From assembly GCF_000189535.1 (NCBI RefSeq), contig NC_015145.1:62001-126000 (forward strand): DNA of 64,000 bases, in the 5' to 3' direction. The position numbers and the translations under genes are program-made. The notes under the pieces were generated by a model, which made no database searches, had not been told where the DNA came from, and worked only from the letters and a program-made list of their open reading frames with translations. Every line of letters starts with the position of its first letter. The first letter of the stretch is position 1. Source of the DNA: Pseudarthrobacter phenanthrenivorans Sphe3. GTDB taxonomy: Bacteria > Actinomycetota > Actinomycetes > Actinomycetales > Micrococcaceae. Shown here piece by piece: positions 37,179-59,701 of this stretch.

Positions 37179-37255
37179 AGCCAGTGCTGGGCCCCGGCCT
37201 AGCCTTTTCTTTCCGTAACGGAGCGACCGCACCAGGCTGACCAGGCCGCTAGCCG

Positions 37256-37936
37256 TTAACTCGCCTGGACGGCGGCGTCTACTTCCCCATTGGAGTGTGC
37301 AGTGGCGGGGAGATAGGCAGCAACATGATGCGTCAGGGCATGCTCGGCCAGCTCAGGATCACCAGCTTCGAGGGCGTCAACAATTGGTCGATGTGATTCG
37401 GCTGCGTCATCTAATGGGACGTCGCTGGAGGCCATTGCCAAGATCGTCATGACCTCGATTCCCAGGGCGTTCCAGGCGCGCAGCAAAGAGGCGTTTTCGG
37501 CCGCCCGTACGACGGATCGGTGGAACGTGGTACTGGCCGCAGCGAAAACCCTGCGGTCACCCCCTTCCGCCGCTTCCTTCATAGCCTCGAAGCCTCCACG
37601 AACCTCCTCAGCGTGATTGTGATAGTTACTGGCGGCTAAGCGACCGGCTATGCCTTCAAGGGCAGAACGGATGGGCACCGCCTCAACCAAGTCCTTTTCG
37701 GCTAGTTGTCGTACACGGGTGCCGACGTGGATACGGGATTCGAGCAGGCCAAGGGCTGCGAGTTCACGAAACGCCTCACGCACCGGCGTCTGACTTGTCC
37801 CGAGCTGTGCCGCTATTTCCATCTCACGAACGGGGGCGCCCAAAGGTAGCCTTCCCTGCGCAATTTCCATGACGATGAAGTCTCGCACTTGGCTGGCGAC
37901 GGTCGTTCTCGTCAGCCGCTTAGAGGTGGCGTCCAT
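37256..37936 (-). CDS. GntR-family regulator, FCD subclass, of the sugar operon
   Basis: A 226-residue regulator. The GntR DNA-binding domain (residues about 10-75) has LPLGAPVREMEIAAQLGTSQTPVREAFRELAALGLLES; the C-terminal FCD domain has AVPIRSALEGIAGRLAASNYHNH and HRSVVRAAENASLLRAWNALG. The ATG at 37936 is preferred to an upstream in-frame ATG (38005) because the HTH begins soon after it. It is divergent from the ABC importer, with a perfect palindrome between them, and probably represses that operon. Confidence 0.92.
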   Translation of the reverse strand: MDATSKRLTRTTVASQVRDFIVMEIAQGRLPLGAPVREMEIAAQLGTSQTPVREAFRELAALGLLESRIHVGTRVRQLAEKDLVEAVPIRSALEGIAGRLAASNYHNHAEEVRGGFEAMKEAAEGGDRRVFAAASTTFHRSVVRAAENASLLRAWNALGIEVMTILAMASSDVPLDDAAESHRPIVDALEAGDPELAEHALTHHVAAYLPATAHSNGEVDAAVQAS

Positions 37937-38043
37937 GGTTCCTCGGCCTTTCTTGGAGCGCCCGGAAGGCAAGCACGAGCTTTCTAGTCTCGCCGGGCTT
38001 TGCATTCACCTTACGCGGGGCAAGGAGAAAAAGAAAGTTTTAG

Positions 38044-38059
38044 GCATTATCGATAATGC
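38044..38059. promoter_or_regulatory. 16-bp palindromic operator overlapping the sugar-operon promoter
   Basis: GCATTATCGATAATGC is a perfect 16-bp palindrome. TTGACT at 38060-38065 directly follows and, 18 bases on, TAGAGT (38084-38089) could be the -10 box of the ABC importer operon. The position, next to the divergent GntR gene, makes it the likely GntR binding site for both transcripts. Confidence 0.7.
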
Positions 38060-38166
38060 TTGACTTGGGGGTGATCGCGGTCATAGAGTTGCTGCTCGAA
38101 CAGGCCGCCGAGACGGTGCGGCTTTCCGCTTCGGCGGGTGTCACAACGAAGTGAGATGAGGCTTTC

Positions 38167-39657
38167 GTGTTAGCACTTGAAGTACGGGGAGTGAGCAAAT
38201 CATTCTTCGGATTCCCGGTACTGACCGGCGTAGACCTTGAGATAAGGCCGGGAGAGGTGCACGGGCTCGTAGGGGAGAACGGCGCCGGGAAATCTACATT
38301 GATGAAGATTCTTGCGGGAGTCTACACAAGGGACGTGGGCCGGGTTGTTCTCGGTGGCAAGGAGGTAATGTTCAGCCATCCTGTGCAGGCTCAGCTGGCA
38401 GGCATTTCCACGGTATTCCAGGAATTCAACCTGTTGCCGGACCGGTCCGTAGCCGAAAATATCTATCTCGGCCGCGAACCGCGTGTGCGAGGTTTCATCT
38501 CGCAACGGAAGATGAACGCAGCGACTGCAGAGCTTTTTTCATCCCTTGGTGTTGACTCCATTAACCCGGCAGCGCATGTGCGAACACTATCTGTGGCGCA
38601 GCAACAGCTCGTGGAAATCGCCAAGGCCCTCAGCTTTGACGCCCGGGTCATCTCCATGGACGAGCCAACCGCTGCGCTTGCGGATCACGAAGTGGAGCTC
38701 CTGTACAGCATCATTGAAAACCTCAAGAAGCGCGGCGTTGCCGTTCTCTACGTATCCCACCGATTGCGGGAAATTTTTAAGCTTTGTGACCGCATCACAG
38801 TTCTCAAGGATGGCGCCCTTGTAGCCACGAAGCCGGCAGAAGAACTCAACGAGCAGGAACTGGTCCGGCTTATGGTCGGGCGCCCCCTGTCCTCGTTCTT
38901 CCCGCCCAAGACCGAAGGAACAGTAGTTGGAGACACAGCGCTCTCCCTTCAAAACGCCGGGAACCATGTAGTAAACAACGTGACGCTGAAACTCCGTCGC
39001 GGGGAAATCCTGGGAATAGCCGGACTGCAAGGGTCAGGCCGCACAGAAGTCTTGGATGCTATCTCCGGATCGGCACCATTTACCCGCGGCGAGATACACG
39101 TCAATGGGGCAGCCACGACCATCAAAACAACCCGCCAAGCAATTCGAGCCGGGATTGCTCACGTCACGGAGGACAGGAAAGCTACGGGACTGCTCCTGAA
39201 TCAATCAGTCATTGATAACGCTCTGACAGTAATCCGAGCCTGCTATCCCAAACGCACTTCAACTGCCCGTCAGGCTGCAACCGACCTGTTTCTGGAGCTG
39301 CAACTCTCAGCACGGGGACCGGATCAGGAGATCAGGTACCTTTCCGGCGGCAATCAACAAAAAGTGATTCTCACCAAGTGGCTGCTTATGGAACCACAAA
39401 TCGTCCTTCTCGATGAGCCCACCAGAGGGATTGATGTTGGTGCGAAGTTTGCCCTGTACGTCCTAATGCGACGTTTGGCTGCCGCCGGACACGCCATCCT
39501 CATGGTTTCCAGCGAATTGCCTGAACTCATCGGGATGGCCGACAGAGTTCTCGTTATGCGTGACGGGGAACTGGTCTCCGAGCTTCCTGCCGGGTCCAGC
39601 GAAGAAAGCATTTTGCAGGCAGCGGCCGGCATAACCGACGCGGCGGTGGCAGCATGA
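38167..39657 (+). CDS. Sugar ABC transporter ATP-binding protein (RbsA/MglA type)
   Basis: A 496-residue duplicated ATPase for carbohydrate import. First nucleotide-binding domain: Walker A GENGAGKST, signature-like LSVAQQQLVEIAKAL, Walker B VISMDEPTAAL. Second domain: altered Walker A LQGSGRTEVLD, intact signature LSGGNQQKVILTKWL and Walker B IVLLDEPTRGID. The degenerate second site is usual for RbsA/MglA proteins. Start is GTG. Overlaps the permease by 4 bases. Confidence 0.93.
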   Translation: MLALEVRGVSKSFFGFPVLTGVDLEIRPGEVHGLVGENGAGKSTLMKILAGVYTRDVGRVVLGGKEVMFSHPVQAQLAGISTVFQEFNLLPDRSVAENIYLGREPRVRGFISQRKMNAATAELFSSLGVDSINPAAHVRTLSVAQQQLVEIAKALSFDARVISMDEPTAALADHEVELLYSIIENLKKRGVAVLYVSHRLREIFKLCDRITVLKDGALVATKPAEELNEQELVRLMVGRPLSSFFPPKTEGTVVGDTALSLQNAGNHVVNNVTLKLRRGEILGIAGLQGSGRTEVLDAISGSAPFTRGEIHVNGAATTIKTTRQAIRAGIAHVTEDRKATGLLLNQSVIDNALTVIRACYPKRTSTARQAATDLFLELQLSARGPDQEIRYLSGGNQQKVILTKWLLMEPQIVLLDEPTRGIDVGAKFALYVLMRRLAAAGHAILMVSSELPELIGMADRVLVMRDGELVSELPAGSSEESILQAAAGITDAAVAA

Positions 39658-40697
39658 ACGCTCACAGATTCAAGTCCACTTTGAACAACGCCCTCCGGTC
39701 CAATACAGGTTCGGTATATCTGGTCTGGATCCTCGTCCTCTGCTGCGGTGCGGTTCTCACTGGGCTCTCCGGCCGCACCTTTTTTACCGAAGGGAACATC
39801 ACCGACCTTCTGACCAGCACCACCGTCCTTGGCCTGGTTGTCGTCGGACAGACCCTCGTCATTCTCCTTGGAAGCCTTGATCTGTCCGTTCCATTCGTGC
39901 TTAGCCTTTCCAGCGTCCTGGCCGCAGGAGTCATGGCAGGACGATCAGAAAACTTTACTGCCGGTATCGTCGCAGCGGTTTTGGTATCCCTCGCCATTGG
40001 ACTCATCAACGGCCTGCTCGTCGGTCTGGTCAAGATCAATGGCTTTATCGCCACGCTCGGTACAGGTCTCGTGGTTTCGGGATACCTCTTCACCAACTAC
40101 CGCGGAAGCACTGGCAAAGCATCCCCTGAACTTGCCGCCATCGGGTCAGCCTCCTGGGGAGTGGTGCCATGGACGACAGTTGCCATGGTCCTATGCCTGG
40201 TGGCCACAGCCCTGTTTCTGAACAGGACCCGGACAGGGCTCCACATTTACGCCGTTGGCGGGGATCCCGCCGTCACAAGGATGTCAGGAATCAGGGCATC
40301 GTTACCCGCAATCGTGGCTCACTCCCTTTCCGGACTCTTCGCGGGCCTCGCCGGACTGGTCATCGTCGCACGTCTGGGCGTCGGCAGCCCCGAGGTCGGC
40401 ACCCAGGGTGGTTATGACCTGCTCTCAATTGCGGCCGTCGTGGTGGGCGGAGCAGTCCTAGCCGGCGGAAAAGGATCGATTTGGGGTTCGCTCGGCGGCA
40501 TCCTCATCTTCGCGACCATCGACAGCCTGCTGGGAATCATGGAAGTCAACCCCTACCTGAAGGAAGTAGTCAGGGGCCTCATCATCATCATCGCTGTCGC
40601 TGTCTATGCGAAAAGAAACCAACTCAAACGATCCGCGCGCTTCGACTCACTGCGGACGAAATCAACCAGTTCAATGAAGGAGGGAAGCATCCGATGA
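39654..40697 (+). CDS. Sugar ABC transporter permease 1 (RbsC type)
   Basis: A 347-residue BPD_transp_2-type permease with about 8-10 helices. LVVVGQTLVILLGSLDLSVPFVLSLSSVLAAGV and RMSGIRASLPAIVAHSLSGLFAGLAGLVIVARLG are the typical blocks. It overlaps the ATPase gene and the second permease by 4 bases (ATGA). The two permeases are different sequences of the same family and presumably form a heterodimer. Confidence 0.92.
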   Translation: MNAHRFKSTLNNALRSNTGSVYLVWILVLCCGAVLTGLSGRTFFTEGNITDLLTSTTVLGLVVVGQTLVILLGSLDLSVPFVLSLSSVLAAGVMAGRSENFTAGIVAAVLVSLAIGLINGLLVGLVKINGFIATLGTGLVVSGYLFTNYRGSTGKASPELAAIGSASWGVVPWTTVAMVLCLVATALFLNRTRTGLHIYAVGGDPAVTRMSGIRASLPAIVAHSLSGLFAGLAGLVIVARLGVGSPEVGTQGGYDLLSIAAVVVGGAVLAGGKGSIWGSLGGILIFATIDSLLGIMEVNPYLKEVVRGLIIIIAVAVYAKRNQLKRSARFDSLRTKSTSSMKEGSIR

Positions 40698-41737
40698 CCA
40701 CAATCAGGTATTCCGCCCAAAGGCAGCCCCTGTTTTCACGAACCCTGCGTTCCTTCGCCACACCCAGTGGAGCGATTTACTTGCTCCTCCTCGCCCTCCT
40801 TATCATCCTGACCTTTTACAATCCATCCCTTGCAGAACCGGACCAGATGACCCGGTTCATTGGGAGGTCAGTACCAATCGCGGTCGTGGCAATTGGCCAG
40901 TACTTCGTCATCGTCGCAGGGGAATTCGACCTGTCAATGGGCGCCGTCATCTCGGCTCAGGTCGTTCTTGCCGGAAATCTGATTGGCCAGGAGCCATCCC
41001 GGATCCCGCAGGTCATGGTGCTCATGGCGGTGCTGGGAACCGTCGTAGGTCTGGTCAACGGCGTACTGACCTCTCTACTCAAGGTACCCAGTTTCATCAC
41101 AACGCTCGGAACGGCACTGGTCCTGTCCGGACTGACTTTCTACTTCACCGGCGGCGCTCCCAGCGGAAACCCGGCCGATGCCTTCCGCGCCATTGGCCGC
41201 GGTGGACTGCAAAATGTCCCCCTTATAGGATTCGTGCCCTACTCAGTTCTGATTCTGCTCTTCGTAGCTATAGGCGCGGCCTGGCTCATGAAAAGACCGT
41301 TCGGACGAATGCTGATTGCAGTTGGTGACAATCCTGCGACAACAGCCCTTGCTGGTGCCAGCCCCTGGTGGATCCGTACTAAAGCCTTCATCCTTTCATC
41401 CACGGCAGCCACCGTGGCAGCAGTTCTCATGGTCGGCTACGCCGGTGTCAGTCCGGTTGTCGGACAGGGCTATGAGTTCACGGCCATCACGGCCGTCGTC
41501 CTCGGCGGCGTCGCCCTGGGAGGTGGACGCGGCGCAGTCCTGTCCGCGGTAGCAGGGGCATACGTCCTGGAAACCCTCGTCAGCATCCTCAACTTTGCCG
41601 GCGTCCAATCGACGTGGCGCCCTTCAGTTCAAGGCGCAATTATCATCCTCGCTCTCGGCATCCCACTGCTGCGCATGAGGCGCCCAGCATGGATGACGAG
41701 AAGGCCGGTAAACCGCAACACCCCGGATGACCAGTAA
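40694..41737 (+). CDS. Sugar ABC transporter permease 2 (RbsC type)
   Basis: A 347-residue permease like its neighbour, with GQYFVIVAGEFDLSMGAVISAQVVLAG and GVALGGGRGAVLSAVAGAYVLETL. The start ATG overlaps the first permease's stop (ATGA); an upstream in-frame extension lies within the preceding gene and is a shadow. Two permeases with one duplicated ATPase is the arrangement of ribose/allose-type importers. Confidence 0.92.
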   Translation: MTTIRYSAQRQPLFSRTLRSFATPSGAIYLLLLALLIILTFYNPSLAEPDQMTRFIGRSVPIAVVAIGQYFVIVAGEFDLSMGAVISAQVVLAGNLIGQEPSRIPQVMVLMAVLGTVVGLVNGVLTSLLKVPSFITTLGTALVLSGLTFYFTGGAPSGNPADAFRAIGRGGLQNVPLIGFVPYSVLILLFVAIGAAWLMKRPFGRMLIAVGDNPATTALAGASPWWIRTKAFILSSTAATVAAVLMVGYAGVSPVVGQGYEFTAITAVVLGGVALGGGRGAVLSAVAGAYVLETLVSILNFAGVQSTWRPSVQGAIIILALGIPLLRMRRPAWMTRRPVNRNTPDDQ

Positions 41738-41787
41738 CAAATAACAACAACCCCCTGGCCACAGCAGGCCACTTCGAAAGGAACAAC

Positions 41788-42993
41788 GTGCCTACACAAG
41801 GGACCAAAACAAAGATGTTTGCGGTGCTAGGTGCAGCCGCCATGATGATCACCGCGTGTGCTCCCGGTTCGACCGCTGGTGCGGAAACCTCTCCGGGTTC
41901 CACCACCACAACCAATGACTGGTTCAACCAGGCACAATTCGATCTGGAAAACTCGCAACGGACTGCAACCTTTGCCGGGGACCCATCCACCCCCTTTCTT
42001 CAGCACCTCGACGGGCCAATGGTAGACGCCACAGCATTCAAAAAGAACGCGCCGGCCAAGGTCTGTTTCTCCAACGCTGCGCTCAGTAACACGTGGCGGC
42101 AGACCGGCTGGATCACCATGAACGAACAGCTCAAGGAGCTGCAAAAGCAGGGTGTCATCTCGCAAATGGAAACCCGCAACGCCCAAGACAGCGACAACAC
42201 ACAGGTTGCTGACATCGACTACTTCGTGAACCAGCAATCCTGTGACGCCTTCATCATCGCCCCCAACTCGCCACAGGCAACGGCACCGGCAGTGGAAAGA
42301 GCCTGCAACACAGGAAAACCCGTCATCATCTTCGACCGTGGGGCCGGCACGGACTGCGCAACCACATTCATCCACTCCGTGGGCGGCATGGCCTGGGGAA
42401 TTGATTCAGCGACGTTCGTAACAGAAAACGTCAAGCCAGGAGGACACGTAGTAGCACTGCGTACGGCGCCTGGAGTTGACGTTTTCGAGCAGCGCTGGGC
42501 TGCTGCCCAGCACATTTTCAGCAAGGCAGGGCTGAAATACACGGACTACATCACCGGTGCCGACCCCACGAAAATCAAAGCAGTCGTGGCCGATGAACTC
42601 GCCAAAGGAACTGTCGATGCCGTTTGGGTGGACCTGGGCGACCAGTCGGTTCCAGCTATCGAGGCCTTCGAGGATGCCGGCAAGGACATCCCTGTGGTGA
42701 CCGGCGAAGACAACCTCTCTTACCTCAGGGCATGGAAGAACAAAGGGTTCAAAGGCTTCGCATCCGTGTATGACGCCTACCAGTGGCGAACTGCGCTCCT
42801 TGCGGCAGCGTCCCTCTTCCGGGGCGAATCCATCCCCAAGGATTGGGTGTTGCCGCAGGTACCAGTCACTTCCGAAGATCTCGACAAGGTACTGAAGACC
42901 AACGAGGGAATGCCCGATTCGCATTACGCAGCCTTCGGCGGCGAGGACCTTCCAGGCTTTCCGCAGGTATGGCAAAAGCGGGTCATTCCCTAA
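41788..42993 (+). CDS. Sugar ABC transporter substrate-binding lipoprotein
   Basis: A 401-residue periplasmic-binding type 1 protein. The lipobox ITAC places the lipidated cysteine at residue 24 from the GTG start. The mature domain has AKVCFSNAALSNTWRQTGWITM, the CDAFIIAPNSPQATAPAVERAC segment and VWVDLGDQSVPAIEAFEDAG. Divergence from RbsB or MglB leaves the ligand unpredicted; a sugar or polyol is likely. A strong hairpin follows the stop. Confidence 0.9.
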   Translation: MPTQGTKTKMFAVLGAAAMMITACAPGSTAGAETSPGSTTTTNDWFNQAQFDLENSQRTATFAGDPSTPFLQHLDGPMVDATAFKKNAPAKVCFSNAALSNTWRQTGWITMNEQLKELQKQGVISQMETRNAQDSDNTQVADIDYFVNQQSCDAFIIAPNSPQATAPAVERACNTGKPVIIFDRGAGTDCATTFIHSVGGMAWGIDSATFVTENVKPGGHVVALRTAPGVDVFEQRWAAAQHIFSKAGLKYTDYITGADPTKIKAVVADELAKGTVDAVWVDLGDQSVPAIEAFEDAGKDIPVVTGEDNLSYLRAWKNKGFKGFASVYDAYQWRTALLAAASLFRGESIPKDWVLPQVPVTSEDLDKVLKTNEGMPDSHYAAFGGEDLPGFPQVWQKRVIP

Positions 42994-42999
42994 CCGCAC

Positions 43000-43029
43000 A
43001 GGGAAGGGCCGGGAAGAACGTCCTTCCCT
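43000..43029 (+). terminator. Intercistronic hairpin after the binding-protein gene
   Basis: AGGGAAGG (43000-43007) pairs with CCTTCCCT (43022-43029) around a 14-base loop, seven bases after the stop. No long T-run follows, so it may be an mRNA-stabilising stem that raises binding-protein expression over the following genes, as in other ABC operons, or a partial terminator. Confidence 0.55.
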
Positions 43030-43061
43030 CCACACTTCACTTCAGTTCGAAAGGAAAATCC

Positions 43062-43589
43062 ATGGCGGCAGACAGCGCTGTTTTTTCGCCCCATCCAGAC
43101 CTATTTCCACCTGCGCGCGTCGCAGAGCTCATCGTGCTGGCAAAAGCGCTTTATCCACACCCGGACCTACGGGACGGACCTTACACCCGGACTGTTTCCA
43201 GCATCATCACACAGGCCGCATCAGACCCCGGGCTATACCGAACCCTGTCGGACGGATTAAGGGACTTGGCCCAGATAACAACTTCGCCAATCCGCGACAT
43301 GGATTCCAAGGCCATTGATTGCCTGCTGCGAGCGGTTGAGCAAACGACGTTCTTCAACACTCTGCGTCCGCTGGTTGCATTTCACCTTTACGACGACCGC
43401 GAAGTCTGGGAATTCATCGGCTACCCGGGGTCTTCGTTCGAACACGGCGGCTACCTGCACCGCGGATTCGACGACCTGGCATGGCTTCCCCAACCCCGCA
43501 TCGAAGAACCCACCGAGTCCCTCCTCCCCATCGGGCCCCTCCCAACGACGTCTCCTGACGTGACCGAATACGCAAGGACAGCCGGATGA
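43062..43589 (+). CDS. Gluconate 2-dehydrogenase subunit 3-like small subunit
   Basis: A 175-residue protein with the small-subunit pattern for GMC dehydrogenases (PF13618): HPDLRDGPYTRTVSSIITQA, FNTLRPLVAFHLYDDREVWEFIGYPGSSFEHGGYLHRGFDDLAWLPQP. It lacks a signal peptide or Tat motif, so the complex appears cytoplasmic. The stop overlaps the start of the GMC subunit by 4 bases (ATGA). An upstream in-frame extension runs into the binding-protein gene and is not real. Confidence 0.85.
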   Translation: MAADSAVFSPHPDLFPPARVAELIVLAKALYPHPDLRDGPYTRTVSSIITQAASDPGLYRTLSDGLRDLAQITTSPIRDMDSKAIDCLLRAVEQTTFFNTLRPLVAFHLYDDREVWEFIGYPGSSFEHGGYLHRGFDDLAWLPQPRIEEPTESLLPIGPLPTTSPDVTEYARTAG

Positions 43590-45154
43590 AAAAGTATGAC
43601 CTCACTGATGACGACGTCGCCGTTATCATCGGTTCCGGCCCCGGCGGTGCCACCTTGGCCCTCAGACTCGTACAGCAAGGCCTTAAAGTCGTGCTTCTCG
43701 AAGCAGGCCCATGGATCACCAACGACAAGTTCATCAACGACGAACGGGAGTCCTACAAGCAGCTCACATGGACCGACACCCGCCTGGCAACAGGATCATG
43801 GAGCCTCGCGAAGGACTTCCCCGGCAGCCCGGCGTGGAACGGAAAGGCCGTCGGTGGAACCGCGACATTCTGGACCGGACTGACACCCCGATTCAAATGG
43901 CACGAGTTCAAGACACACACGTACTACGGAGACCTGCCCGATGGGACCATCGCAGACTGGCCACTGGACCTGGACGAACTCGACCATTACTACACCGAAG
44001 CGGAAAAAGCGGTGGGAGCCTCCCACCGGCACGGCCGACCTCCACTGCCGGCGAGCAACGGCTACAAGGTTCTGGCGAACGGCGCCGAACGAATCGGATA
44101 CCGCCATTACGCAACAGGCCCCTACGCCACCAACGTTGAACCCTACGATGGCCGCCCGGGCACAGTTCAGGACGGCTTCGCCATGGCAGGCGATAAAAGC
44201 CGCGCCAAGTGGTCACCACTTGTCAGCGAGATACCAAAGGCCTTAGCCACCGGCCTGCTGGAACTGCGGACCGAAGCCCAAGCCGTACAAATCACGCTAG
44301 GCCCTGACGGCCGCGCGGACGGCGTCGTCTACACAGACACCGTCGGAAACCTGCAACGTCAACGGGCTCGCCTCGTAGCTGTAGCAGGAAACGCCATCGA
44401 GACGCCACGCCTGCTCCTGCTTTCGGCTACCTCGGGCCATCCCGACGGCCTTGCGAACTCCTCAGGCCAGGTCGGGCGCAACTATATGCGGCACACCACC
44501 GGTCTCGTCTACGCCGAGTTCCCCAACGAAGTCCATATGTACCGCGGCGAACCAATGGCAGGCATCATCAGCGACGAATCGCGGCATGACCCATCACGGG
44601 GCTTCGTTGGCGGCTACTACATCGAGATGATCGCCCAAGGGCTGCCCTCATTCAGTACCTTCATGAGCCCGGGGGAGTGGGGGCCACAATTCACAGAAAA
44701 GGTAGAAGCCTACACCCGCACAGCGGCACTTTGGATTTGCGGTGAGGACGTTCCGCAGGCATCCAACAGAGTGACCCTAAGCAACACCGTCACCGACCGC
44801 CTCGGTCTGCCCGCACCTGTCGTCCACTACGACGACCATCCCAACGACATCGCCATGCGGAACCACGGCTACGAGCAGGGCGAGAAACTCTTCAAAGCTG
44901 TCGGCGCCATCCGCACAACCAGAGCCCCGGGGATGCCCTCCGGCCACAACCTGGGAACAGCCCGAATGAGCCAGAAGCCTGATGAAGGCGTCGTCAACAG
45001 TTTCGGTCAAGCCCACGACGTACCTAACCTGTTCGTCTCCGACGGGTCACAATTCACCACCGGCGCTGCCGCGAACCCCACCCTGACAATCGTCGCCCTG
45101 TCGATGCGACAGGGCGACTACATCGGCCGGCAGCTCAGCGCGGCAGCTCTGTAG
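43586..45154 (+). CDS. GMC-family FAD-dependent dehydrogenase
   Basis: A 522-residue flavoprotein. The FAD-binding GSGPGGATLALRLVQQGLKVVLLEAG is at the N-terminus; the C-terminal SGHNLGTARMSQ and ANPTLTIVAL contain the His and Asn of the GMC catalytic pair. With the small subunit before it, the pair resembles bacterial glucoside 3-dehydrogenase / gluconate 2-dehydrogenase systems that oxidise a sugar or polyol hydroxyl to a ketone. No cytochrome subunit or signal peptide is present, so the electron acceptor is unknown. Confidence 0.92.
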   Translation: MKKYDLTDDDVAVIIGSGPGGATLALRLVQQGLKVVLLEAGPWITNDKFINDERESYKQLTWTDTRLATGSWSLAKDFPGSPAWNGKAVGGTATFWTGLTPRFKWHEFKTHTYYGDLPDGTIADWPLDLDELDHYYTEAEKAVGASHRHGRPPLPASNGYKVLANGAERIGYRHYATGPYATNVEPYDGRPGTVQDGFAMAGDKSRAKWSPLVSEIPKALATGLLELRTEAQAVQITLGPDGRADGVVYTDTVGNLQRQRARLVAVAGNAIETPRLLLLSATSGHPDGLANSSGQVGRNYMRHTTGLVYAEFPNEVHMYRGEPMAGIISDESRHDPSRGFVGGYYIEMIAQGLPSFSTFMSPGEWGPQFTEKVEAYTRTAALWICGEDVPQASNRVTLSNTVTDRLGLPAPVVHYDDHPNDIAMRNHGYEQGEKLFKAVGAIRTTRAPGMPSGHNLGTARMSQKPDEGVVNSFGQAHDVPNLFVSDGSQFTTGAAANPTLTIVALSMRQGDYIGRQLSAAAL

Positions 45155-45206
45155 ACATTCCGTTCCGCTGCCCTACCAGCCATCGAAAACAGCAACAAGG
45201 AGCATC

Positions 45207-46583
45207 ATGGCAATCGCGACCATCGACCCCACCACGGGCATCACCCTGAAAACCTTCGACGCCCATACGCCCGAAGAGGTAGAAAACCGGATCGCCCGTG
45301 CGGAAGCAGCATTCCGGTCACTGCAGAACACCTCCTTTGAAGAACGCGCCCGCTGGATGCATAAGGCCGCTGACATCCTCGAAAGCGAAGCCGACGAAGT
45401 GGCCCGTCTCATCGCCACCGAGATGGGCAAAACCTTAACGACAGCAAAGTACGAGGCCCTGAAATCAGCCACCGGCATGCGGCACTTCGCCGATCACGCC
45501 CAGCGCTACCTTAGCCCGGAAACCCCGGTCCCGGCGAAAGAGGTCAACGCCTCCAACCTCCACGTACAATTCGACCCGTTAGGCGTCGTTTTGGCCGTTA
45601 TGCCCTGGAATTACCCCCTTTGGCAGGCCGTCCGCTTCGCCGCCCCCGCACTAATGGCGGGCAACACAGGGCTCCTCAAGCACGCCTCAAACGTTCCTCA
45701 ATGTGCGCTGTACCTGGGAGACCTCTTCGCCCGCGGCGGTTTTCCTGAAGGCGCGTTTCAGACACTGCTGGTTGAAGGCAAAGACGTTATTCCCCTCGTG
45801 GATGACGCAAGGATCAGGGCGGTCACCCTGACCGGCTCCGTCGCTGCCGGTTCCGCCATTGCTGAAGCAGCCGGCAGGAACATCAAAAGGAGTGTCCTGG
45901 AACTGGGAGGCATGGATGTCTTTATCGTCATGCCCTCGGCCGATATTGAAAAGGCTGCTGCCCAGGCAGTAATCGCACGCCTTCAAAACTCGGGGCAGTC
46001 CTGCATCGCGGCCAAGCGCTTCTACGTTCACGAAGATGTCTACGACCGCTTTGAACATCTGTTCGTTACAGGTATGGCCGAAGCAGTTGCCGGTGACCCC
46101 TTGGACGAAAGCACCAGCTTTGGCCCCCTGGCCACGGAGCGAGGACGCCAGGACGTTCATGAACTGGTTAGGGACGCCCGCGAAAAAGGGGCAGCAGTTC
46201 AGTGTGGAGGAGAAATACCGGAAGGGGAGGGCTGGTACTACCCGGCGACTGTCCTCACAGGCGTAACAGAGGACATGCGCATCTACCGGGAAGAATGCTT
46301 CGGCCCCGTGGCCTGCCTCTACAAAGTGTCATCACTCCAGGAAGCCATCGCTCTCAGCAACGACTCTGATTTTGGTTTGAGCTCAAGCGTGTGGACGAAT
46401 GACGAGACCGAAGCGACCGAAGCAGCTCGATCAATCGAGGCCGGGGGCGTCTTCATCAACGGTCTGACGGCGTCATTCCCGGCGGTGCCTTTCGGCGGCC
46501 TCAAAGACTCCGGCTACGGACGTGAGCTCTCCGCCTATGGAATCCGGGAGTTCGTAAACATCAAGACGGTCTGGACCTCCTGA
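45207..46583 (+). CDS. NAD(P)-dependent aldehyde dehydrogenase
   Basis: A 458-residue ALDH of the succinate-semialdehyde dehydrogenase-like group. The catalytic Cys is in NSGQSCIAAKRF, the Glu in LELGGMD, and the cofactor loop is TGSVAAGSA. GMD in place of GKN/GND at the Glu motif is a mild deviation. It would oxidise an aldehyde formed by the cluster, perhaps glyceraldehyde or tartronate semialdehyde, to the acid. A terminator-like hairpin follows. Confidence 0.9.
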   Translation: MAIATIDPTTGITLKTFDAHTPEEVENRIARAEAAFRSLQNTSFEERARWMHKAADILESEADEVARLIATEMGKTLTTAKYEALKSATGMRHFADHAQRYLSPETPVPAKEVNASNLHVQFDPLGVVLAVMPWNYPLWQAVRFAAPALMAGNTGLLKHASNVPQCALYLGDLFARGGFPEGAFQTLLVEGKDVIPLVDDARIRAVTLTGSVAAGSAIAEAAGRNIKRSVLELGGMDVFIVMPSADIEKAAAQAVIARLQNSGQSCIAAKRFYVHEDVYDRFEHLFVTGMAEAVAGDPLDESTSFGPLATERGRQDVHELVRDAREKGAAVQCGGEIPEGEGWYYPATVLTGVTEDMRIYREECFGPVACLYKVSSLQEAIALSNDSDFGLSSSVWTNDETEATEAARSIEAGGVFINGLTASFPAVPFGGLKDSGYGRELSAYGIREFVNIKTVWTS

Positions 46584-46595
46584 CCCACCCGACAC

Positions 46596-46633
46596 GGGGC
46601 GGCGCTGGCCCTACTAACCCTCAGCGCCGCCCC
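46596..46633 (+). terminator. Terminator-like hairpin separating the two halves of the sugar cluster
   Basis: GGGGCGGCGCTG (46596-46607) and CAGCGCCGCCCC (46622-46633) form a perfect 12-bp stem with a 14-base loop, followed by TTCAACCCTTTTC. It lies 12 bases after the aldehyde dehydrogenase stop and 25 bases before the Gfo/Idh/MocA start, so the last three genes may have their own transcript or be attenuated. Confidence 0.7.
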
Positions 46634-46658
46634 TTCAACCCTTTTCTCTGAGGAAAAT

Positions 46659-47825
46659 ATGACTAAAACAGCGATTGTCCGCGTCGCCATGAATGGCATC
46701 ACCGGCCGGATGGGTTACCGCCAGCACCTGCTGCGTTCCATCCTCCCGATCCGCGACGCCGGCGGCTTCACCCTCGAGGACGGCACCAGGGTCCAGATCG
46801 AACCGATCCTGGTGGGCCGCAACGAGGCCAAGATCCGCGAACTTGCGGAAAAGCACAAGGTCGCCGAATGGACCACGGACCTCGACTCGGTCATCAACGA
46901 CCCCACCGTTGACGTCATCTTCGACGCGTCCATGACCAGCCTCCGCGCAGCCACCCTGAAGAAGGCCATGCTCGCCGGCAAGCACATCTTCACCGAGAAG
47001 CCCACAGCGGAAACCCTTGAAGAGGCCATCGAACTTGCCCGCATCGGCAAGGAAGCCGGCGTCACGGCCGGCGTCGTTCACGACAAGCTCTACCTGCCCG
47101 GCCTGGTCAAGCTCCGCCGCCTGGTGGACGAGGGCTTCTTCGGCCGCATCCTCTCCATCCGCGGCGAGTTTGGCTACTGGGTCTTCGAAGGCGACATCCA
47201 GGCGGCCCAGCGCCCGTCCTGGAACTACCGCAAGGAAGACGGCGGTGGAATGACCACGGACATGTTCTGCCACTGGAACTACGTCCTCGAGGGCATCATC
47301 GGCAAGGTCAAGAGCGTCAGCGCCAAGACCGCCACCCACATCCCGGCGCGCTGGGACGAAGCCGGCAAGGAATACAAGGCCACGGCGGATGATGCTTCCT
47401 ACGGCATCTTCGAGCTCGAGACCCCGGGCGGCGACGAAGTCATCGGCCAGATCAACTCGTCCTGGGCAGTGCGTGTCTACCGCGATGAACTGGTGGAGTT
47501 CCAGGTTGACGGGACCCACGGCTCCGCCGTCGCAGGCCTGAACAAGTGCGTCGCCCAGCAGCGCGCCCACACCCCCAAGCCGGTCTGGAACCCGGACCTG
47601 CCCGTCACCGAGTCCTTCCGCGACCAGTGGCAGGAAGTCCCGGCCAATGCCGAGCTGGACAACGGGTTCAAGCTGCAGTGGGAAGAGTTCCTCCGCGACG
47701 TCGTGGCCGGCCGCGAGCACCGCTTCGGGCTGCTGTCCGCCGCCCGCGGCGTCCAGCTGGCCGAGCTCGGCCTGAAGTCCAACGATGAACGCCGCACCCT
47801 CGACATCCCGGAGATCACCCTCTAA
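46659..47825 (+). CDS. Gfo/Idh/MocA-family oxidoreductase
   Basis: A 388-residue NAD(P)-dependent sugar dehydrogenase. The N-terminal MNGITGRMGYRQHLLRSIL is the cofactor loop; HIFTEKPTA carries the EKP signature with the catalytic Lys. It would oxidise or reduce a (keto)sugar, isomerise one through a keto form, or act on a product of the GMC enzyme. The stop overlaps the DUF993 start (TAATG). Codon use is markedly more GC-rich at third positions than in the genes before 46.6 kb and after 49.0 kb. Confidence 0.92.
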   Translation: MTKTAIVRVAMNGITGRMGYRQHLLRSILPIRDAGGFTLEDGTRVQIEPILVGRNEAKIRELAEKHKVAEWTTDLDSVINDPTVDVIFDASMTSLRAATLKKAMLAGKHIFTEKPTAETLEEAIELARIGKEAGVTAGVVHDKLYLPGLVKLRRLVDEGFFGRILSIRGEFGYWVFEGDIQAAQRPSWNYRKEDGGGMTTDMFCHWNYVLEGIIGKVKSVSAKTATHIPARWDEAGKEYKATADDASYGIFELETPGGDEVIGQINSSWAVRVYRDELVEFQVDGTHGSAVAGLNKCVAQQRAHTPKPVWNPDLPVTESFRDQWQEVPANAELDNGFKLQWEEFLRDVVAGREHRFGLLSAARGVQLAELGLKSNDERRTLDIPEITL

Positions 47826-49033
47826 TGACCTCGCTCATCCTTCCCTCCCACGACGGCGGCACCCGCGAATACCGGCTGCAGGGCGGCACCTCCTGGGCCC
47901 GCCCCACCGCCCCGCTGACTGCCCGGCGGGCCTACGCTGCCGCGCACGTCATCCCCGAAGTCCTCGCTGACAACACCCCCGGCGCCCCGGCCCGGCTCGA
48001 CTGGGAGGCGACCATGGCCTACCGCCATGAGCTGTGGTCCTACGGGCTCGGTGTGGCGGACGCCATGGATACTGCCCAGCGCGGCATGGGCCTCGACTGG
48101 GCGGCCACCCAGCAGCTCATCAAGCGGACAGGCGTCGAGGCCGCATCGGTGGTCGCAACCGGAAACGCCGCCACAGCGGGCAAGACCGTCCGGGACCTGG
48201 TTTCCTGCGGCGCCGGCACGGACCAGCTCGACATCGACTCCCTGCCGGCCGGCGAAGCGGGCATCAAGGCCGTGCTTGAGGCCTACCGCGAACAGATCGC
48301 CGTGATCACCGAAGCCGGCCCCAAGGTTATCCTGATGGCGTCGCGTGCCCTGGCCAAGGTTGCCAACGGCCCTGACGACTACCTGAAGGTCTACTCCACC
48401 CTGCTGCAGGAAGTGGACCAGCCCGTCATCCTGCACTGGCTGGGCACCATGTTCGATCCCGCCCTGGCCGGCTACTGGGGTTCGGACGATGTCGCAACCG
48501 CCACCGCGACGTTCCTTGGCCTCATCAGGGACCATGCGGACAAGGTGGACGGCGTCAAGGTCTCCCTGCTGGATGCCGGCCACGAGGTTGCACTCCGCGC
48601 GGCCCTCCCCGAAGGCGTCCGCCTCTACACCGGCGACGACTTCAACTACCCCGAGCTCATCGACGGCGACGGGACCCACCACTCCGACGCCCTGCTGGGC
48701 ATCTTCGCGGCCATCTACCCGGCCGCCTCGGTTGCCCTGCAGAACTACGACGCCGGCAACGCCGCCAAAGCACGCGAAATCCTGGACTCCACCAGGGAAC
48801 TGGGCAAGCACATCTTCAGCGCCCCCACCTTCTACTACAAGACCGGCATCGCGTTTATGTCCTGGCTCAACGGCAAACAGCCCGGCTTCCAGATGGTCGG
48901 CGGTCTGCACTCCGGCCGGTCTGTGTGCCACCTCGCCAAGACCTTCGAACTGGCCGACCAGGCGGGCCTGCTCAAGGACCCGGCACTGGCTGCCTTCCGG
49001 ATGTCTGAATTTTTGCGGATAAGCGGGATCTAG
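47825..49033 (+). CDS. DUF993 family protein, dihydrodipicolinate-synthase-like aldolase fold
   Basis: A 402-residue protein of the DUF993 family, related to the DHDPS/NAL TIM-barrel superfamily. Visible blocks: RLDWEATMAYRHELWSYGLGVADAMDTAQRGMGLDW, QPVILHWLGTMFDPALAGYWGS and the Lys-containing VDGVKVSLLDAGHE, where the Schiff-base lysine would be expected. No function is known for the family; it is often next to Gfo/Idh/MocA and sugar-isomerase genes in actinobacteria. An aldol cleavage of a keto-sugar is the natural inference. Stop TAG abuts the next ATG. Confidence 0.88.
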   Translation: MTSLILPSHDGGTREYRLQGGTSWARPTAPLTARRAYAAAHVIPEVLADNTPGAPARLDWEATMAYRHELWSYGLGVADAMDTAQRGMGLDWAATQQLIKRTGVEAASVVATGNAATAGKTVRDLVSCGAGTDQLDIDSLPAGEAGIKAVLEAYREQIAVITEAGPKVILMASRALAKVANGPDDYLKVYSTLLQEVDQPVILHWLGTMFDPALAGYWGSDDVATATATFLGLIRDHADKVDGVKVSLLDAGHEVALRAALPEGVRLYTGDDFNYPELIDGDGTHHSDALLGIFAAIYPAASVALQNYDAGNAAKAREILDSTRELGKHIFSAPTFYYKTGIAFMSWLNGKQPGFQMVGGLHSGRSVCHLAKTFELADQAGLLKDPALAAFRMSEFLRISGI

Positions 49034-50203
49034 ATGGACCTTGCCAGTCCGCGCCCGAATGGACACGCACGGGTTCTCATCGCATCAGATAAATTCAAGG
49101 GCTCCCTTTCCTCACGAGAGGTCGCCGCCCATCTCACTGCTGGTCTTCGCAGCGTGCATCCAGCCGTTCAGGTCAAACAGCTGCAGGTCGCTGATGGTGG
49201 CGAAGGCACAGTAAAAGCGGTGATCAGTGCAGGCTTCAGCAGCCATCTCGTTCAAGTCAGCGGTCCCACGGGACGTCCAGTTGTCGCAGAATTTGCAACA
49301 CGGGGCAACGAAGCCGTTATTGAGATGGCAAATGCCGCTGGCTTAGCCCTTCTCCCAGGGGGTGCCTCCGCTCCGCTGACCGCTAGTAGTAGAGGAGTAG
49401 GAGAACTCGTCTGCGCAGCACTCGACCTGGGCTGTAACAAGATCGTCATCGGGGCTGGAGGAAGCGCCTGCACTGACGGTGGGGCTGGATTCCTGGCGGC
49501 ACTTGGTGCCGAATTTCTCGATGCCAAGGGTCAACCTCTGCACGAGGGCGGGGGGTTTCTGATGGACCTCGCCTCCGTGAATCTGGACAACCTGGATAAG
49601 AGACTTCGTCGGGCGCGATTCGTTTTGGCAACAGACGTTAACAACCCATTGCTCGGTCCTGAGGGTGCAGCAGCGATATTCGCGCCCCAAAAGGGGGCTA
49701 CGAAGACCGACATCGCGCGCCTCAAAGCCGGACTTGAGCAGCTAGTCGCAAGTATGGAGCAAGAAATCGGTCCTCGGGCTATTAGAGCTGCCGCAGTACC
49801 AGGAGCGGGATCTGCGGGCGGGCTCGGTTACGCTGTCATCGCAGTCCTGGCTGCGCGAACCCAACCAGGAGTCGTTGCCTTCCAAAACATACTGGAACTG
49901 AACCACTACATCGCGGACTCAACACTCGTAATAACCGGTGAGGGAAACATGGACGAGCAAAGCCTCGGCGGGAAGCTGCCCCTGGGTATCAGTCGCATCG
50001 CTTCAGAACACGGTGTACCAGTGATTGCAGTCTGCGGAAACATCGCCCTGGACGCTTCGCAAGTTGAGCTCGCTGGTTTCACCCGGGCCTACTCTCTGCG
50101 GGAACTGCAGCCCGATCTGTCCCGATGCATCAACCAAGCTGGGCCACTGTTAGAACAAATTGGGAGCACCATCGGATCTGATCTTCACAAACTGGGTGCA
50201 TGA
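49034..50203 (+). CDS. glxK: Glycerate kinase
   Basis: A 389-residue type I glycerate 2-kinase. The N-terminal ASDKFKGSLSSREVA, ADGGEGT, and GAGGSACTDGGAGFLAALGA, the three hallmark blocks, are all present. It would phosphorylate D-glycerate to 2-phosphoglycerate. It starts directly after the DUF993 stop with no spacer. The enzyme places the pathway's exit at glycerate. Codon use returns to a less GC-biased pattern than the two genes before it. Confidence 0.93.
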   Translation: MDLASPRPNGHARVLIASDKFKGSLSSREVAAHLTAGLRSVHPAVQVKQLQVADGGEGTVKAVISAGFSSHLVQVSGPTGRPVVAEFATRGNEAVIEMANAAGLALLPGGASAPLTASSRGVGELVCAALDLGCNKIVIGAGGSACTDGGAGFLAALGAEFLDAKGQPLHEGGGFLMDLASVNLDNLDKRLRRARFVLATDVNNPLLGPEGAAAIFAPQKGATKTDIARLKAGLEQLVASMEQEIGPRAIRAAAVPGAGSAGGLGYAVIAVLAARTQPGVVAFQNILELNHYIADSTLVITGEGNMDEQSLGGKLPLGISRIASEHGVPVIAVCGNIALDASQVELAGFTRAYSLRELQPDLSRCINQAGPLLEQIGSTIGSDLHKLGA

Positions 50204-50246
50204 CGGACACGACGGGCAGGGCAGGTCGCACGTTGGAGGCAAGAAT

Positions 50247-50465
50247 ATGAGCAAATTCCAATACCTTGAGCCCGGCAGCCGAATTGAAGCATGGGACAAA
50301 ACCGGCACCCGCTGGCAAGGAACCGTTGATATGGCAGACCCTGATTTTGGCGTTATTTGGATCCACACAGACGTTGGGGAACGCAAACTCCTCGACTTCC
50401 ACGAGCATACGATCCTTGCGGCCCTGCCGGTAAATCTGCAACCTGAATCGCTCAGGCCTGTGTAA
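50247..50465 (+). CDS. Small hypothetical protein
   Basis: A 72-residue protein, MSKFQYLEPGSRIEAWDKTGTRW..., with alternating strands that look like a small SH3- or Tudor-like barrel (W-x-G-T-V-D-x-A and G-V-I-W-I-H-T-D-V). GGAGG lies seven bases before the ATG. It follows glycerate kinase by 43 bases and may be co-transcribed or belong to the next element. Family not recognised. Confidence 0.6.
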   Translation: MSKFQYLEPGSRIEAWDKTGTRWQGTVDMADPDFGVIWIHTDVGERKLLDFHEHTILAALPVNLQPESLRPV

Positions 50466-50585
50466 GACTAACGCCGATAATGGAGATTATGTAAAGTAGT
50501 AAAAAGGTTGTTCGCAATTTCTGCGAATACGTCCACTCTCGATAACGGCTTGTTTAGGCCTAGATAACGGCTGTGAGCGGCCGGT

Positions 50586-51872
50586 TTGTTTGTCTGGTCA
50601 CGGCAGGGATCCGTTCAGGTGAGCCCGGACGTGCTGCGCTGCATGTCCACAAATTGGCGTCGTATCAGGCATCCTGGGCTCGCAGTTTGCATTTTTTGCA
50701 TTCTGACTGCAAAACTTGCAGTCGGCATTGGAGGCTTCTTGGGTGATAAGTTCGGCGGTCTCGCGTTCTTGCCGCTGCCGAATCGGGAGCCGGATCGTGA
50801 CGCGTTCCTGAGCGAGGTGCTCACCGGGTGGAAGAGATCCCACTTGGCGCAGAACTTCACCCTGCAGACGACCAAGCGCCGGGTCGCCTCGGTGATGCGC
50901 CTGTCGGACTTCTCGGGCAAGTATCCGTGGGAATGGGGCCCGGTCGACGCGGATGAGCTGTTCGCCCATCTGCGCGGTGTTGAGAACCTTGCCCTTTCCA
51001 CCGTCCGGGCGTACCAGACGGACATCAAGCTGTTTTGCGAGTATGCGACCAACCCTGAATACCCGTGGAACGAGAACTGCGGGCGGCTCTTCGGGACCAC
51101 CTTTTCCCAGGTGATCACCGAGTTCAACAAGGCCCGGCACGTCCAGGATGCCGATATGGGTCCAGAGAAGCGTGCCTTCACTCTCGAGGAGCTGCAGGCA
51201 TTCTTCGACCTGGCCGACCTGGAGGTCGAACGGATCATTAATTCGGGGCGCAAGGGCGCTCTTGCCGCCTGGCGTGACGCCGTGGCCTTCAAGACCGCCT
51301 ACGGCTGGGGCCTTCGGCGCGACGAGCTTCGTCACCTCAGCCTCGTGGATTTTTCCCGCAATGTTAAGGCCCCGTACTTTGGTGACTACGGCATTCTGCG
51401 CGTCCGGTTCGGGAAGCCGCAGAAGGGCTCCCCCAAGAAACAGCGGTCCGTCCTGACCCTTCTGGACTGGGCGGCCGAGGCGGTTGATGACTGGGTCAGG
51501 CGCGGTCTTCCCCGGTATGGGCAGCCTGTCGGCGACCTCTTCCCGACTGACCGTGGCGGCCTGGTTCCGGAAAAGAACCTCCGGGCTCGGATGCGCGGGT
51601 TCCTTGATGAACTCGGCTTTCCGCCGGGGCTTGATCTTCACTCCCTGCGCCGGTCCTATGTCACGCATATGCAGACCGAGCACGGATATGACACCAAGTT
51701 CATCTCAATGCAGGTTGGCCACGAGCACACATCGACGACCACGATCTACACCCTGCCCTCCCCCGACTATGCCGCACGCGAACTCGAACGCGTTCTCAAC
51801 AGCACCCTGCTGGCCAGCAACAGCAGGGTGCTGACCAAACCCACAACGCCTTCCGGAAAGACACCACGATGA
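50586..51872 (+). CDS. Tyrosine recombinase/integrase, catalytic
   Basis: A protein of up to 428 residues (TTG start; ATG at 50643 is also possible, and the domain itself starts near residue 55). N-terminal SAM-like core-binding domain with ENLALSTVRAYQTDIKLFCEYA; catalytic domain with Arg in YGWGLRRDELRHLS (about 244), Lys-rich turn near GKPQKGSPKKQR, HSLRR (H-x-x-R), GHEHTSTTTIYTLPSPDY (His and Tyr nucleophile). All catalytic residues look intact. It is the first of three overlapping genes of the recombinase cassette. Confidence 0.9.
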   Translation: MFVWSRQGSVQVSPDVLRCMSTNWRRIRHPGLAVCIFCILTAKLAVGIGGFLGDKFGGLAFLPLPNREPDRDAFLSEVLTGWKRSHLAQNFTLQTTKRRVASVMRLSDFSGKYPWEWGPVDADELFAHLRGVENLALSTVRAYQTDIKLFCEYATNPEYPWNENCGRLFGTTFSQVITEFNKARHVQDADMGPEKRAFTLEELQAFFDLADLEVERIINSGRKGALAAWRDAVAFKTAYGWGLRRDELRHLSLVDFSRNVKAPYFGDYGILRVRFGKPQKGSPKKQRSVLTLLDWAAEAVDDWVRRGLPRYGQPVGDLFPTDRGGLVPEKNLRARMRGFLDELGFPPGLDLHSLRRSYVTHMQTEHGYDTKFISMQVGHEHTSTTTIYTLPSPDYAARELERVLNSTLLASNSRVLTKPTTPSGKTPR

Positions 51873-56926: not shown

Positions 56927-57967
56927 TTGCATACCCATCAGTCATTTCCGGTCCCTGACCTCATCCGACTTGCCGCAGAAGTGCTGCAGGCTCGCGGCGT
57001 CCCCGACGACGACGCCCAACTCACGGCCCGCTCGCTCGTCCAAGCAGACCAGCGCGGCATCTTCTCGCACGGCCTGCTGCGCCTGCCGTTGTACGCCGAG
57101 GCGCTCCGCCTGGGCGGCATTAACCCCACCCCGGCGATGACCTTTTCGTCCACCCGGAATGCCGTGGCCGTGCTCGATGCCGACGGGGCGCTTGGCCAGG
57201 TCGCCATGCAGGCGGCGGTTCGCAGGGTCATCGACGCCGGCGGTGCACACGGTATTGCCGCCGTCGCCGTCTCCAACAGCAGCCATTACGGAGCGGGAGC
57301 CTTCTGGAGCGACCAGCTCGCCGAGGCAGGCTTCCTCTCCTTCATCACTTCGTCCACCGGCCCCGTGGTCGCACCCCACGGTGGACTTGAGAAAGTGCTA
57401 GGAACCAACCCGCTCACACTTGGCGCACCCAGTGCCGGCGGGTGGCCCCTGACTGCCGACCTCGCCACAAGCAACGGCGCGTACGGCAAGGTCATTGCTG
57501 CCCGCAACGAGGGCCGGCAGCTTCCTGAGGGGTGGGCCGTGGACTTCGAGGGCAACCCGACCACCGATCCCGAAGCTGCAGCACTCGGGTCCATGATCCC
57601 TTTCGGCGGCCACAAGGGCTCGGCTGTCTCGGTGCTCCTCGAAGCCTTCGCCTCGTCACTCACCGATGCAACGTTCGCGTACGAGACCGTCGACATCTGG
57701 TCCAACCCTGCGTCCCGGATGAACAACGGGCACCTCGTCGTCGGAATCGACGCGGCTGCATTCGGAGGCCGGGACCACACCGAGGCCCGGGTTGCAGATC
57801 TTCAGCAGCGCGTCCGCATGTCGGGACCGGCCGGCCGCACCGTGCATGCGCCGGGGGACCCGGAACGGGCACGTGAGGCGGAAGCCGCCACGTCCGTCCA
57901 GTTGCCCGCCTCCACGGCAGACCAGCTCCGACGGCTCGCACACGAACTTTCGCTCACAACCGTCTGA
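56927..57967 (+). CDS. Ldh-family (malate/L-lactate/sugar-acid) dehydrogenase
   Basis: A 346-residue member of the LDH2/MDH2 family (PF02615) from a TTG start. Landmarks: DQRGIFSHGLLRLPLYAEAL (catalytic His in SHG), VAVSNSSHYGAGAFW, APHGGLEKVLGTNPLTLGAP, and GHKGSAVSVLLE. Members reduce or oxidise 2-oxoacids, ureidoglycolate or sugar-acid intermediates such as 2,3-diketogulonate with NAD(P). As the first gene of the TRAP/enolase operon, it probably acts on a keto sugar acid. The extension after residue 320 is Ala/Glu-rich. Confidence 0.9.
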   Translation: MHTHQSFPVPDLIRLAAEVLQARGVPDDDAQLTARSLVQADQRGIFSHGLLRLPLYAEALRLGGINPTPAMTFSSTRNAVAVLDADGALGQVAMQAAVRRVIDAGGAHGIAAVAVSNSSHYGAGAFWSDQLAEAGFLSFITSSTGPVVAPHGGLEKVLGTNPLTLGAPSAGGWPLTADLATSNGAYGKVIAARNEGRQLPEGWAVDFEGNPTTDPEAAALGSMIPFGGHKGSAVSVLLEAFASSLTDATFAYETVDIWSNPASRMNNGHLVVGIDAAAFGGRDHTEARVADLQQRVRMSGPAGRTVHAPGDPERAREAEAATSVQLPASTADQLRRLAHELSLTTV

Positions 57968-58045
57968 ACAAATCAGTCGGCCAAACCAACCGAACAGGCC
58001 GACCCTAAGTCCGGCACAACACGTATTCCCGGAAGGAACCTAGCA

Positions 58046-59086: not shown

Positions 59087-59694
59087 TTCCCAGCAATTCA
59101 CGGTCGGAGGCGCTCAAAGAGAACAACATCGCCACCGGCTCCCACGTCCCGCATGAACCGGATGAGCCGGACTTCGCCGAACAGCGCAGCCGGCTGTACC
59201 GGGGACTGGTTAACGTGGAGCGTGCAGCTTCCTGCACGCTCCTGGTGGCCACGCTCGCCCTGATCGTGCTGCAGGTGGTCAGCCGGTACGTGTTCAATGC
59301 GCCCTTCAGCTGGACAGAGGAGCTCGCCCGGTTCGCGCTGCTGTGGTTCACGTTTGTCTCCGCCGGCTTTGTGATGGCCCGCCGCATCCATATCGCCGTG
59401 GACCTGCTGGCCAGCAAGCTCGGACGGACCGGCACTGTCATCCTGGATACGTTCGCTCTGACGGCTGTGGTGGTAACCGCAGGCGTGATGGCGGTCAACG
59501 GCGCCCAGTCCGCCGTCGGCGCGAACCGGCTCCTGGCTCCGGCCACCAGTCTGCCGATGAGCGTCGTCTACAGCGCCGCGGTAACCGGGTTCATGCTCAT
59601 TTTCCTCCACGCTGCCCTGCACATTTACCTCAATCTCCGCCACCCCGAGGTCGTCCCCGACGCAATGGAAAACCTCGAGCGGGAAGCGGTTTAG
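59083..59694 (+). CDS. dctQ: TRAP transporter small permease DctQ
   Basis: A 203-residue protein with four helices after a long hydrophilic start of about 45 residues. NAPFSWTEELARFALLWFTFVSAGFVMARRIHIAVDLL is the typical DctQ block. It overlaps dctP by 4 bases and precedes dctM by seven bases. Confidence 0.93.
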   Translation: MIPSNSRSEALKENNIATGSHVPHEPDEPDFAEQRSRLYRGLVNVERAASCTLLVATLALIVLQVVSRYVFNAPFSWTEELARFALLWFTFVSAGFVMARRIHIAVDLLASKLGRTGTVILDTFALTAVVVTAGVMAVNGAQSAVGANRLLAPATSLPMSVVYSAAVTGFMLIFLHAALHIYLNLRHPEVVPDAMENLEREAV

Positions 59695-59701
59695 GACTCC
59701 C

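Follow-up and report, generated by a model that had tools for sequence, protein, structure and literature searches.

Here we analyzed the locus at positions 37256-50203 of a 64-kb window (the whole stretch of DNA considered) from Pseudarthrobacter phenanthrenivorans Sphe3. It carries a regulator gene and ten genes for an ATP-binding cassette (ABC) importer, a two-subunit GMC dehydrogenase, an aldehyde dehydrogenase (AldH), a Gfo/Idh/MocA dehydrogenase (Gfo), a DUF993 protein and a glycerate kinase. Our model, to which we give about an even chance, is that the locus is a mobile operon for the non-phosphorylative breakdown of a sugar or polyol and corresponds, on the chromosome, to the carbohydrate cluster of plasmid pAO1; in it, C-C bond cleavage by DUF993 would lead to glycerate. 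More tentatively, and with clearly less than even confidence, we propose DUF993 as the founder of a widely distributed group of C-C lyases that work through a Schiff base and act on non-phosphorylated keto-sugars made by Gfo and GMC enzymes, not on 2-keto-3-deoxy acids. Together with an aldehyde dehydrogenase (ALDH) and either of two glycerate kinase families, such lyases would form an unrecognized glycerate-producing sugar pathway in Actinomycetota and Pseudomonadota.

The DUF993 gene (47825-49033, plus strand) encodes a 402-aa protein that scores 595 bits against a family cut-off of 24. At least 7,998 relatives exist (all candidates scored passed), and a structure has been available since 2012 (4dnh). 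Pfam assigns the family no reaction, and our full-text literature search retrieved no paper naming DUF993 and no mention of PF06187, 4DNH or 3OQB; SMc04132 and SMc04133 occur in a table of PMC12542648. By structure, DUF993 has the TIM-barrel fold of the DHDPS/NAL superfamily, and it is on structure that its predicted membership rests. Lys245 lies on the strand formed by residues 241-247, at the position of the strand-6 Schiff-base lysine, and a lysine is present in 123 of 123 loci; this comparison scored residue presence, and the hhalign register agrees with it, though weakly. The initial annotation's description of DUF993 as an aldolase-type TIM barrel is therefore borne out by both fold and conserved lysine. 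Two other hallmarks of the superfamily are replaced. The catalytic tyrosine of strand 5 is His204 in all 123 loci (a register taken from a weak hhalign alignment and strand order), and the pyruvate-carboxylate motif GTTGE after strand 2 reads AQR(G/N)M, with Gln85 and Arg86 likewise present in 123 of 123. These replacements suggest that the chemistry may differ from that of the classical aldolases. We infer a lyase activity that would proceed through a Schiff base at Lys245.

Gene neighborhoods link DUF993 statistically to glycerate kinase. In an even sample of the phylum, DUF993 occurs in 29 of 396 genomes; besides the one containing our window this leaves 28, of which 26 were used for neighborhood counts after a contig-end fragment and a 23-bit match were left out. 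Both a Gfo gene and a gene for a PF01261 isomerase/epimerase lie within 7 kb of DUF993 in 26/26 loci, and a class I glycerate kinase gene in six. By chance, the kinase gene should lie this close (7 kb) in 0.09 genomes, and no farther than 15 kb away in 0.20; the observed numbers are 6 and 8 (control of 25 sampled genomes with a mean of 1.48 class I kinase genes, one genome being omitted for its 6.7-kb contig). As the eight genomes belong to only three families and six genera, they do not represent eight independent events. A second set of 80 loci, made up of the best DUF993 matches and not evenly sampled, gave Gfo in 77, PF01261 in 77 and the class I kinase in 8. We also compared 14 proteobacterial plasmid loci, 12 of them hand-picked for being varied and annotated, the other two found by way of the importer's binding protein. 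A glycerate kinase is annotated in nine (7/12 without the two binding-protein loci), a GMC enzyme in six and an ALDH in five. All nine kinases match a MOFRL-class query and none the class I query, the MOFRL domain itself having been scanned in the Paracoccus pantotrophus protein only. In the Sphe3 operon, the Gfo, DUF993 and glycerate kinase genes abut, with spacings of -1 and 0 bp. These counts and this spacing support the proposed exit through glycerate and glycerate kinase.

Moreover, comparable assemblies recur. Plasmids of Paracoccus yeei and P. pantotrophus encode relatives of Gfo (58% identity), DUF993 (51%), the ALDH (43-44%) and the binding protein (44%), together with an isomerase, a MOFRL kinase, an importer and a GMC enzyme that, among named models, matches choline dehydrogenase best without reaching its cut-off. 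An actinobacterial locus (L194) holds ALDH, GMC, Gfo, DUF993, isomerase and class I kinase genes on one strand, followed by a different type of importer and a glycosidase of family 1. Our best evidence for assigning glycerate formation and flavin oxidation to the DUF993 pathway is that one setting recurs with differing kinase families and differing GMC subfamilies.

Several observations weigh against this reading. The kinase gene is absent within 7 kb of DUF993 in 20/26 and 72/80 actinobacterial loci and from 5/14 proteobacterial stretches, and a class I kinase is present somewhere in all 26 genomes checked. Importer, GMC and ALDH genes are not near DUF993 in most actinobacterial loci: ALDH was found in 1/26 and 2/80, GMC in 1/26 and 1/80, and a binding protein of the operon type in 0/26 and 0/80. 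The genomes behind these counts are related. Because the compared genes of the two Paracoccus loci agree to about 99%, these loci count as one event, and since they were found via the binding protein, their importer is shared by selection. Genes for a CoA-transferase, an enoyl-CoA hydratase or an acyl-CoA dehydrogenase occur at several DUF993 loci and find no place in our scheme; in Proteobacteria, such loci with CoA-ester genes hinted at a different pathway. Finally, when DUF993 is aligned by profile with four proteins of the DHDPS family, the match is weak (hhalign probability 0.6, E 0.095). Dabb-family small proteins are encoded near DUF993 in four proteobacterial loci (L214, L215, L216 and L217), two of which, L215 and L216, have genes for CoA-transferase and enoyl-CoA hydratase as well. 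In a relative of the same genus (L208, G009 C1:379764-380957), DUF993 is matched in three separate pieces and is probably a broken gene.

How DUF993 might act otherwise has to be weighed. Its Schiff base could serve dehydration, decarboxylation or isomerization, with glycerate arising at another step, for example from a glyceryl part of the substrate. KdgD, of the same superfamily, uses its Schiff base for such non-aldolase chemistry, and the histidine and AQR(G/N)M replacements fit this explanation. We nevertheless consider it fairly unlikely: the operon contains no other recognized C-C lyase gene, and its tail of ALDH and kinase suggests that an aldehyde is produced by cleavage. Alternatively, the cluster could encode an oxidative D-xylose pathway, with Gfo as xylose dehydrogenase, DUF993 as 2-keto-3-deoxy-pentonate aldolase or dehydratase, and AldH acting on the resulting aldehyde. 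The fold of DUF993 is shared by 2-keto-3-deoxy acid aldolases (2v8z is among its structural matches), and a xylA gene lies about 2.4 kb from a second, chromosomal DUF993 gene. However, the operon has no pentonate dehydratase gene (the two IlvD/EDD-family genes of the genome both lie outside the window), Gfo reaches 23 bits where the Gfo6 model, the one xylose dehydrogenase model compared, requires 350, and the pyruvate-binding GTTGE motif is not kept. Glycerate kinase is not known to have a role in the Weimberg or Dahms routes. The genome also has two xylA genes, both with 710 bits against a cut-off of 447, the second at 1.87 Mb. We therefore regard this explanation as unlikely, and the xylose assignment of the cluster as weakened. 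It derives from the title of a Res. Microbiol. paper of 2013 (cited in PMC6305408), which presents an oxidative xylose pathway as encoded on plasmid pAO1; the published experiments may speak in its favor, and our findings question it. The available portions of two other pAO1 articles, PMC10494377 and PMC6214936, do not contain the word "xylose".

A composite island would be a different matter: importer, GMC and ALDH would act on one substrate, and Gfo, DUF993 and kinase on a second one, the promoter being shared only through recent assembly. The scarcity of the first set near actinobacterial DUF993 genes speaks for this, as does the lack of DUF993 in all 13 extended loci of GMC orthologs elsewhere. 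A second Gfo-DUF993 pair, at 2.45 Mb of the chromosome (L097, 10927-13376), moreover shares 95-96% (Gfo) and 94% (DUF993) identity with the operon copies, whereas neither the GMC enzyme nor the binding protein has a relative above 65% and 62% identity, respectively, in 295 genomes of the family (Micrococcaceae). Yet a matching inventory occurs in Paracoccus, where it uses a different kinase family, and in L194 without the importer type of the operon, in each case with different GMC subfamilies, and we consider such a composite very unlikely. As for the history of the locus, an imported importer-GMC-ALDH cassette likely captured a local Gfo-DUF993 pair. A PF01261 isomerase gene adjoins the second, chromosomal pair and is absent from the operon, to which the enzyme could be supplied in trans. 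The initial annotation, whose gene inventory was otherwise sound, had overlooked the lack of this near-constant partner of Gfo and DUF993.

We return to the glycerate-producing model, for which we infer the substrate, the order of steps, the lyase activity, the cytosolic location of the GMC pair and the identity of the C3 fragment. The CUT2-type ABC importer would take up the substrate, which the putatively cytosolic flavin (GMC) dehydrogenase and Gfo would oxidize to a keto-sugar. If isomerization or elimination is needed, the PF01261 enzyme whose gene adjoins the chromosomal Gfo-DUF993 pair may provide it. DUF993 would then form a Schiff base via Lys245 and cleave a C-C bond, releasing a C3 aldehyde that AldH may convert to glycerate, and glycerate kinase would feed this into glycolysis. 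The scheme put forward in the initial annotation was a reasonable outline and is strengthened at two points, DUF993 as Schiff-base lyase and the exit through glycerate. The fold class, the likely catalytic lysine, the altered substrate motif and the recurrent glycerate kinase link narrow DUF993 to a testable reaction type.

The block is more than a chance arrangement, since it is present as a whole on six plasmid records at 96.9% identity. Compared with pAO1 of Paenarthrobacter nicotinovorans, the stretch 37220-50496 shows 96.7% DNA identity over 13,280 bp, and AldH is 100% identical (rounded). Homology to pAO1 stops at 50496, inside a Xer/dif-like site (50472-50497, plus strand; exact match, 0 expected by chance) that adjoins a gene for a tyrosine recombinase outside the pathway (50586-51872, plus strand; Phage_integrase 6e-13). 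That the homology ends inside such a site beside a recombinase gene supports site-specific acquisition. Three further dif-like sites with at most two mismatches occur in the genome, an exact one at 2,064,100 of the chromosome and one with a single mismatch on each of contigs C2 and C3; none was found at the left end in the window. In the stretches of pAO1 read, no recombinase is annotated and no dif-like site occurs within three mismatches; by eye, a degenerate, half-like dif sequence stands where the homology ends, at the right end. The J. Mol. Evol. paper of 2013 on pAO1 is said to report that the chromosome of Arthrobacter (now Pseudarthrobacter) phenanthrenivorans holds an almost identical cluster, and to describe Xer-type recombination. 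Its title, as cited in PMC6305408, presents pAO1 as spreading catabolic traits by horizontal transfer. The label "uncharacterized" that the locus had been given is not supported, because the same cluster sits on the annotated pAO1 and titles on xylose catabolism by pAO1 are in print. In five plasmids of Arthrobacter sp. NtRoot (AP024633, AP024635, AP024638, AP024640 and AP024642), the match to the binding protein ends at residue 238 and lies at two sites; the annotation puts an IS30-family transposase inside the operon span.

The genes named in the initial annotation are all open reading frames at or very near where it had placed them and, the GMC small subunit excepted, score above curated family cut-offs. 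The ten plus-strand genes do run in one direction, as had been proposed, with gaps of -4 to 75 bp that are operon-like, and a single operon for import and catabolism is supported; the regulator, however, is divergent. Its gene (37256-38005, minus strand) encodes 249 aa with FCD (2e-20) and GntR (5e-15) matches in Pfam, and its pAO1 counterpart is annotated as GntR at 57798-58478, starting 69 bp further in. Between the regulator and importer genes lies a perfect 16-bp palindrome, GCATTATCGATAATGC (38044-38059), which abuts a -35-like TTGACT (38060) followed by a -10-like TAGAGT (38084). It is one of two perfect 16-bp palindromes across the window and is identical in pAO1; no copy was found in the other loci compared (3.2 Mb searched in total). 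We propose it as a candidate operator.

The importer comprises a CUT2/RbsA-like ATPase (38167-39657, plus; 496 aa, start codon uncertain; ABC_tran 2e-53), two permeases (39654-40697, plus, BPD_transp_2 1e-32; and 40694-41737, plus, 1e-34, its start set at the 4-bp overlap) and a sugar-type solute-binding protein (41788-42993, plus; 401 aa; Peripla_BP_4 4e-28) with a lipobox-like leader by eye. AraG, XylG, RbsA and other sugar models all score the ATPase under their cut-offs, and the closest PDB entry to the binding protein, 4pe6 (2e-27), is named merely "Putative ABC transporter". Relatives of the binding protein reach 85% identity in public sequences, the named ones being from Cryobacterium (76%) and Glaciihabitans and other Microbacteriaceae (73%). 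Eight genomes of the family (L166-L173) hold importer relatives with a binding protein of 59-62% identity. PF01261 genes lie near those of L167 and L168, whose neighbors were scanned in part, and L168 also has a Gfo resembling levoglucosan dehydrogenase (312 bits, below the 650 required); these Gfo-like and PF01261 neighbors indicate no clear substrate.

The GMC small subunit (43062-43589, plus; 175 aa, with a later start in the pAO1 annotation) matches nothing in Pfam (E up to 0.01) or in the PDB (E up to 1). It is recognized because relatives of 33-44% identity adjoin a GMC large subunit at all 34 other places examined (L099-L127 and L128-L132). The large subunit (43586-45154, plus; 522 aa; GMC_oxred_N/C) is closest in the PDB to glucose dehydrogenase (6a2u, 7e-45) and the fructose dehydrogenase large subunit (7w2j, 2e-37). 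No twin-arginine (RR/Tat) leader is seen by eye in the small subunit, as against four of five proteobacterial relatives, a difference that had escaped the initial annotation, and the Pfam matches of the operon include no cytochrome gene; the pair is predicted to be cytosolic. The five annotated proteobacterial GMC loci have VOC and small-subunit genes alongside, with no pointer to a substrate, and the Micrococcaceae GMC loci were checked for genes of the Sphe3 operon only. The remaining catabolic genes encode AldH (45207-46583, plus; 458 aa; Aldedh; equivalog NF042989, 947 bits against 800), Gfo (46659-47825, plus; 388 aa, NAD(P)-dependent; Pfam GFO_IDH_MocA; PDB 3oqb, 3e-138) and the glycerate kinase (49034-50203, plus; 389 aa; PF02595 (Gly_kinase), 400 bits against 23), which TIGR00045 places in class I (356 bits against 168). 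Further along the window, 56927-60982 carries an Ldh_2 gene (malate/L-lactate dehydrogenase type) followed by DctP and DctM of a TRAP transporter; together they probably form an independent cluster for the uptake of organic acids.

Known systems share parts of this architecture. In the tail of the non-phosphorylative Entner-Doudoroff pathway, an aldolase is followed by glyceraldehyde dehydrogenase and glycerate kinase. The operon likewise has an aldolase-fold enzyme, an ALDH and a glycerate kinase, but with DUF993 in place of KDG aldolase, additional Gfo and GMC oxidations and no sugar-acid dehydratase. FAD-dependent glucose and fructose dehydrogenase complexes resemble the GMC pair in having a related large subunit and a small partner gene upstream, and differ from it in the Tat leader and the cytochrome c subunit. 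Within the DHDPS/NAL superfamily, DUF993 stands apart by His204 and AQR(G/N)M, and it extends beyond DHDPS on either side of the aligned range (34-383). The levoglucosan and 3-keto-sugar pathways (LgdA/LgdB/LgdC) combine Gfo/Idh/MocA and PF01261 enzymes with an ABC importer (PMC10066097); unlike these, the operon adds DUF993 and glycerate kinase, and its Gfo, at 76 bits, stays below the 650 bits set for levoglucosan dehydrogenase. The gene set as such is already known from pAO1, whose carbohydrate cluster (NZ_CP089294, 57798-70743) has the same eleven genes, order, orientation and palindrome; there it is located on a plasmid typed as conjugative, whereas in Sphe3 it is chromosomal.

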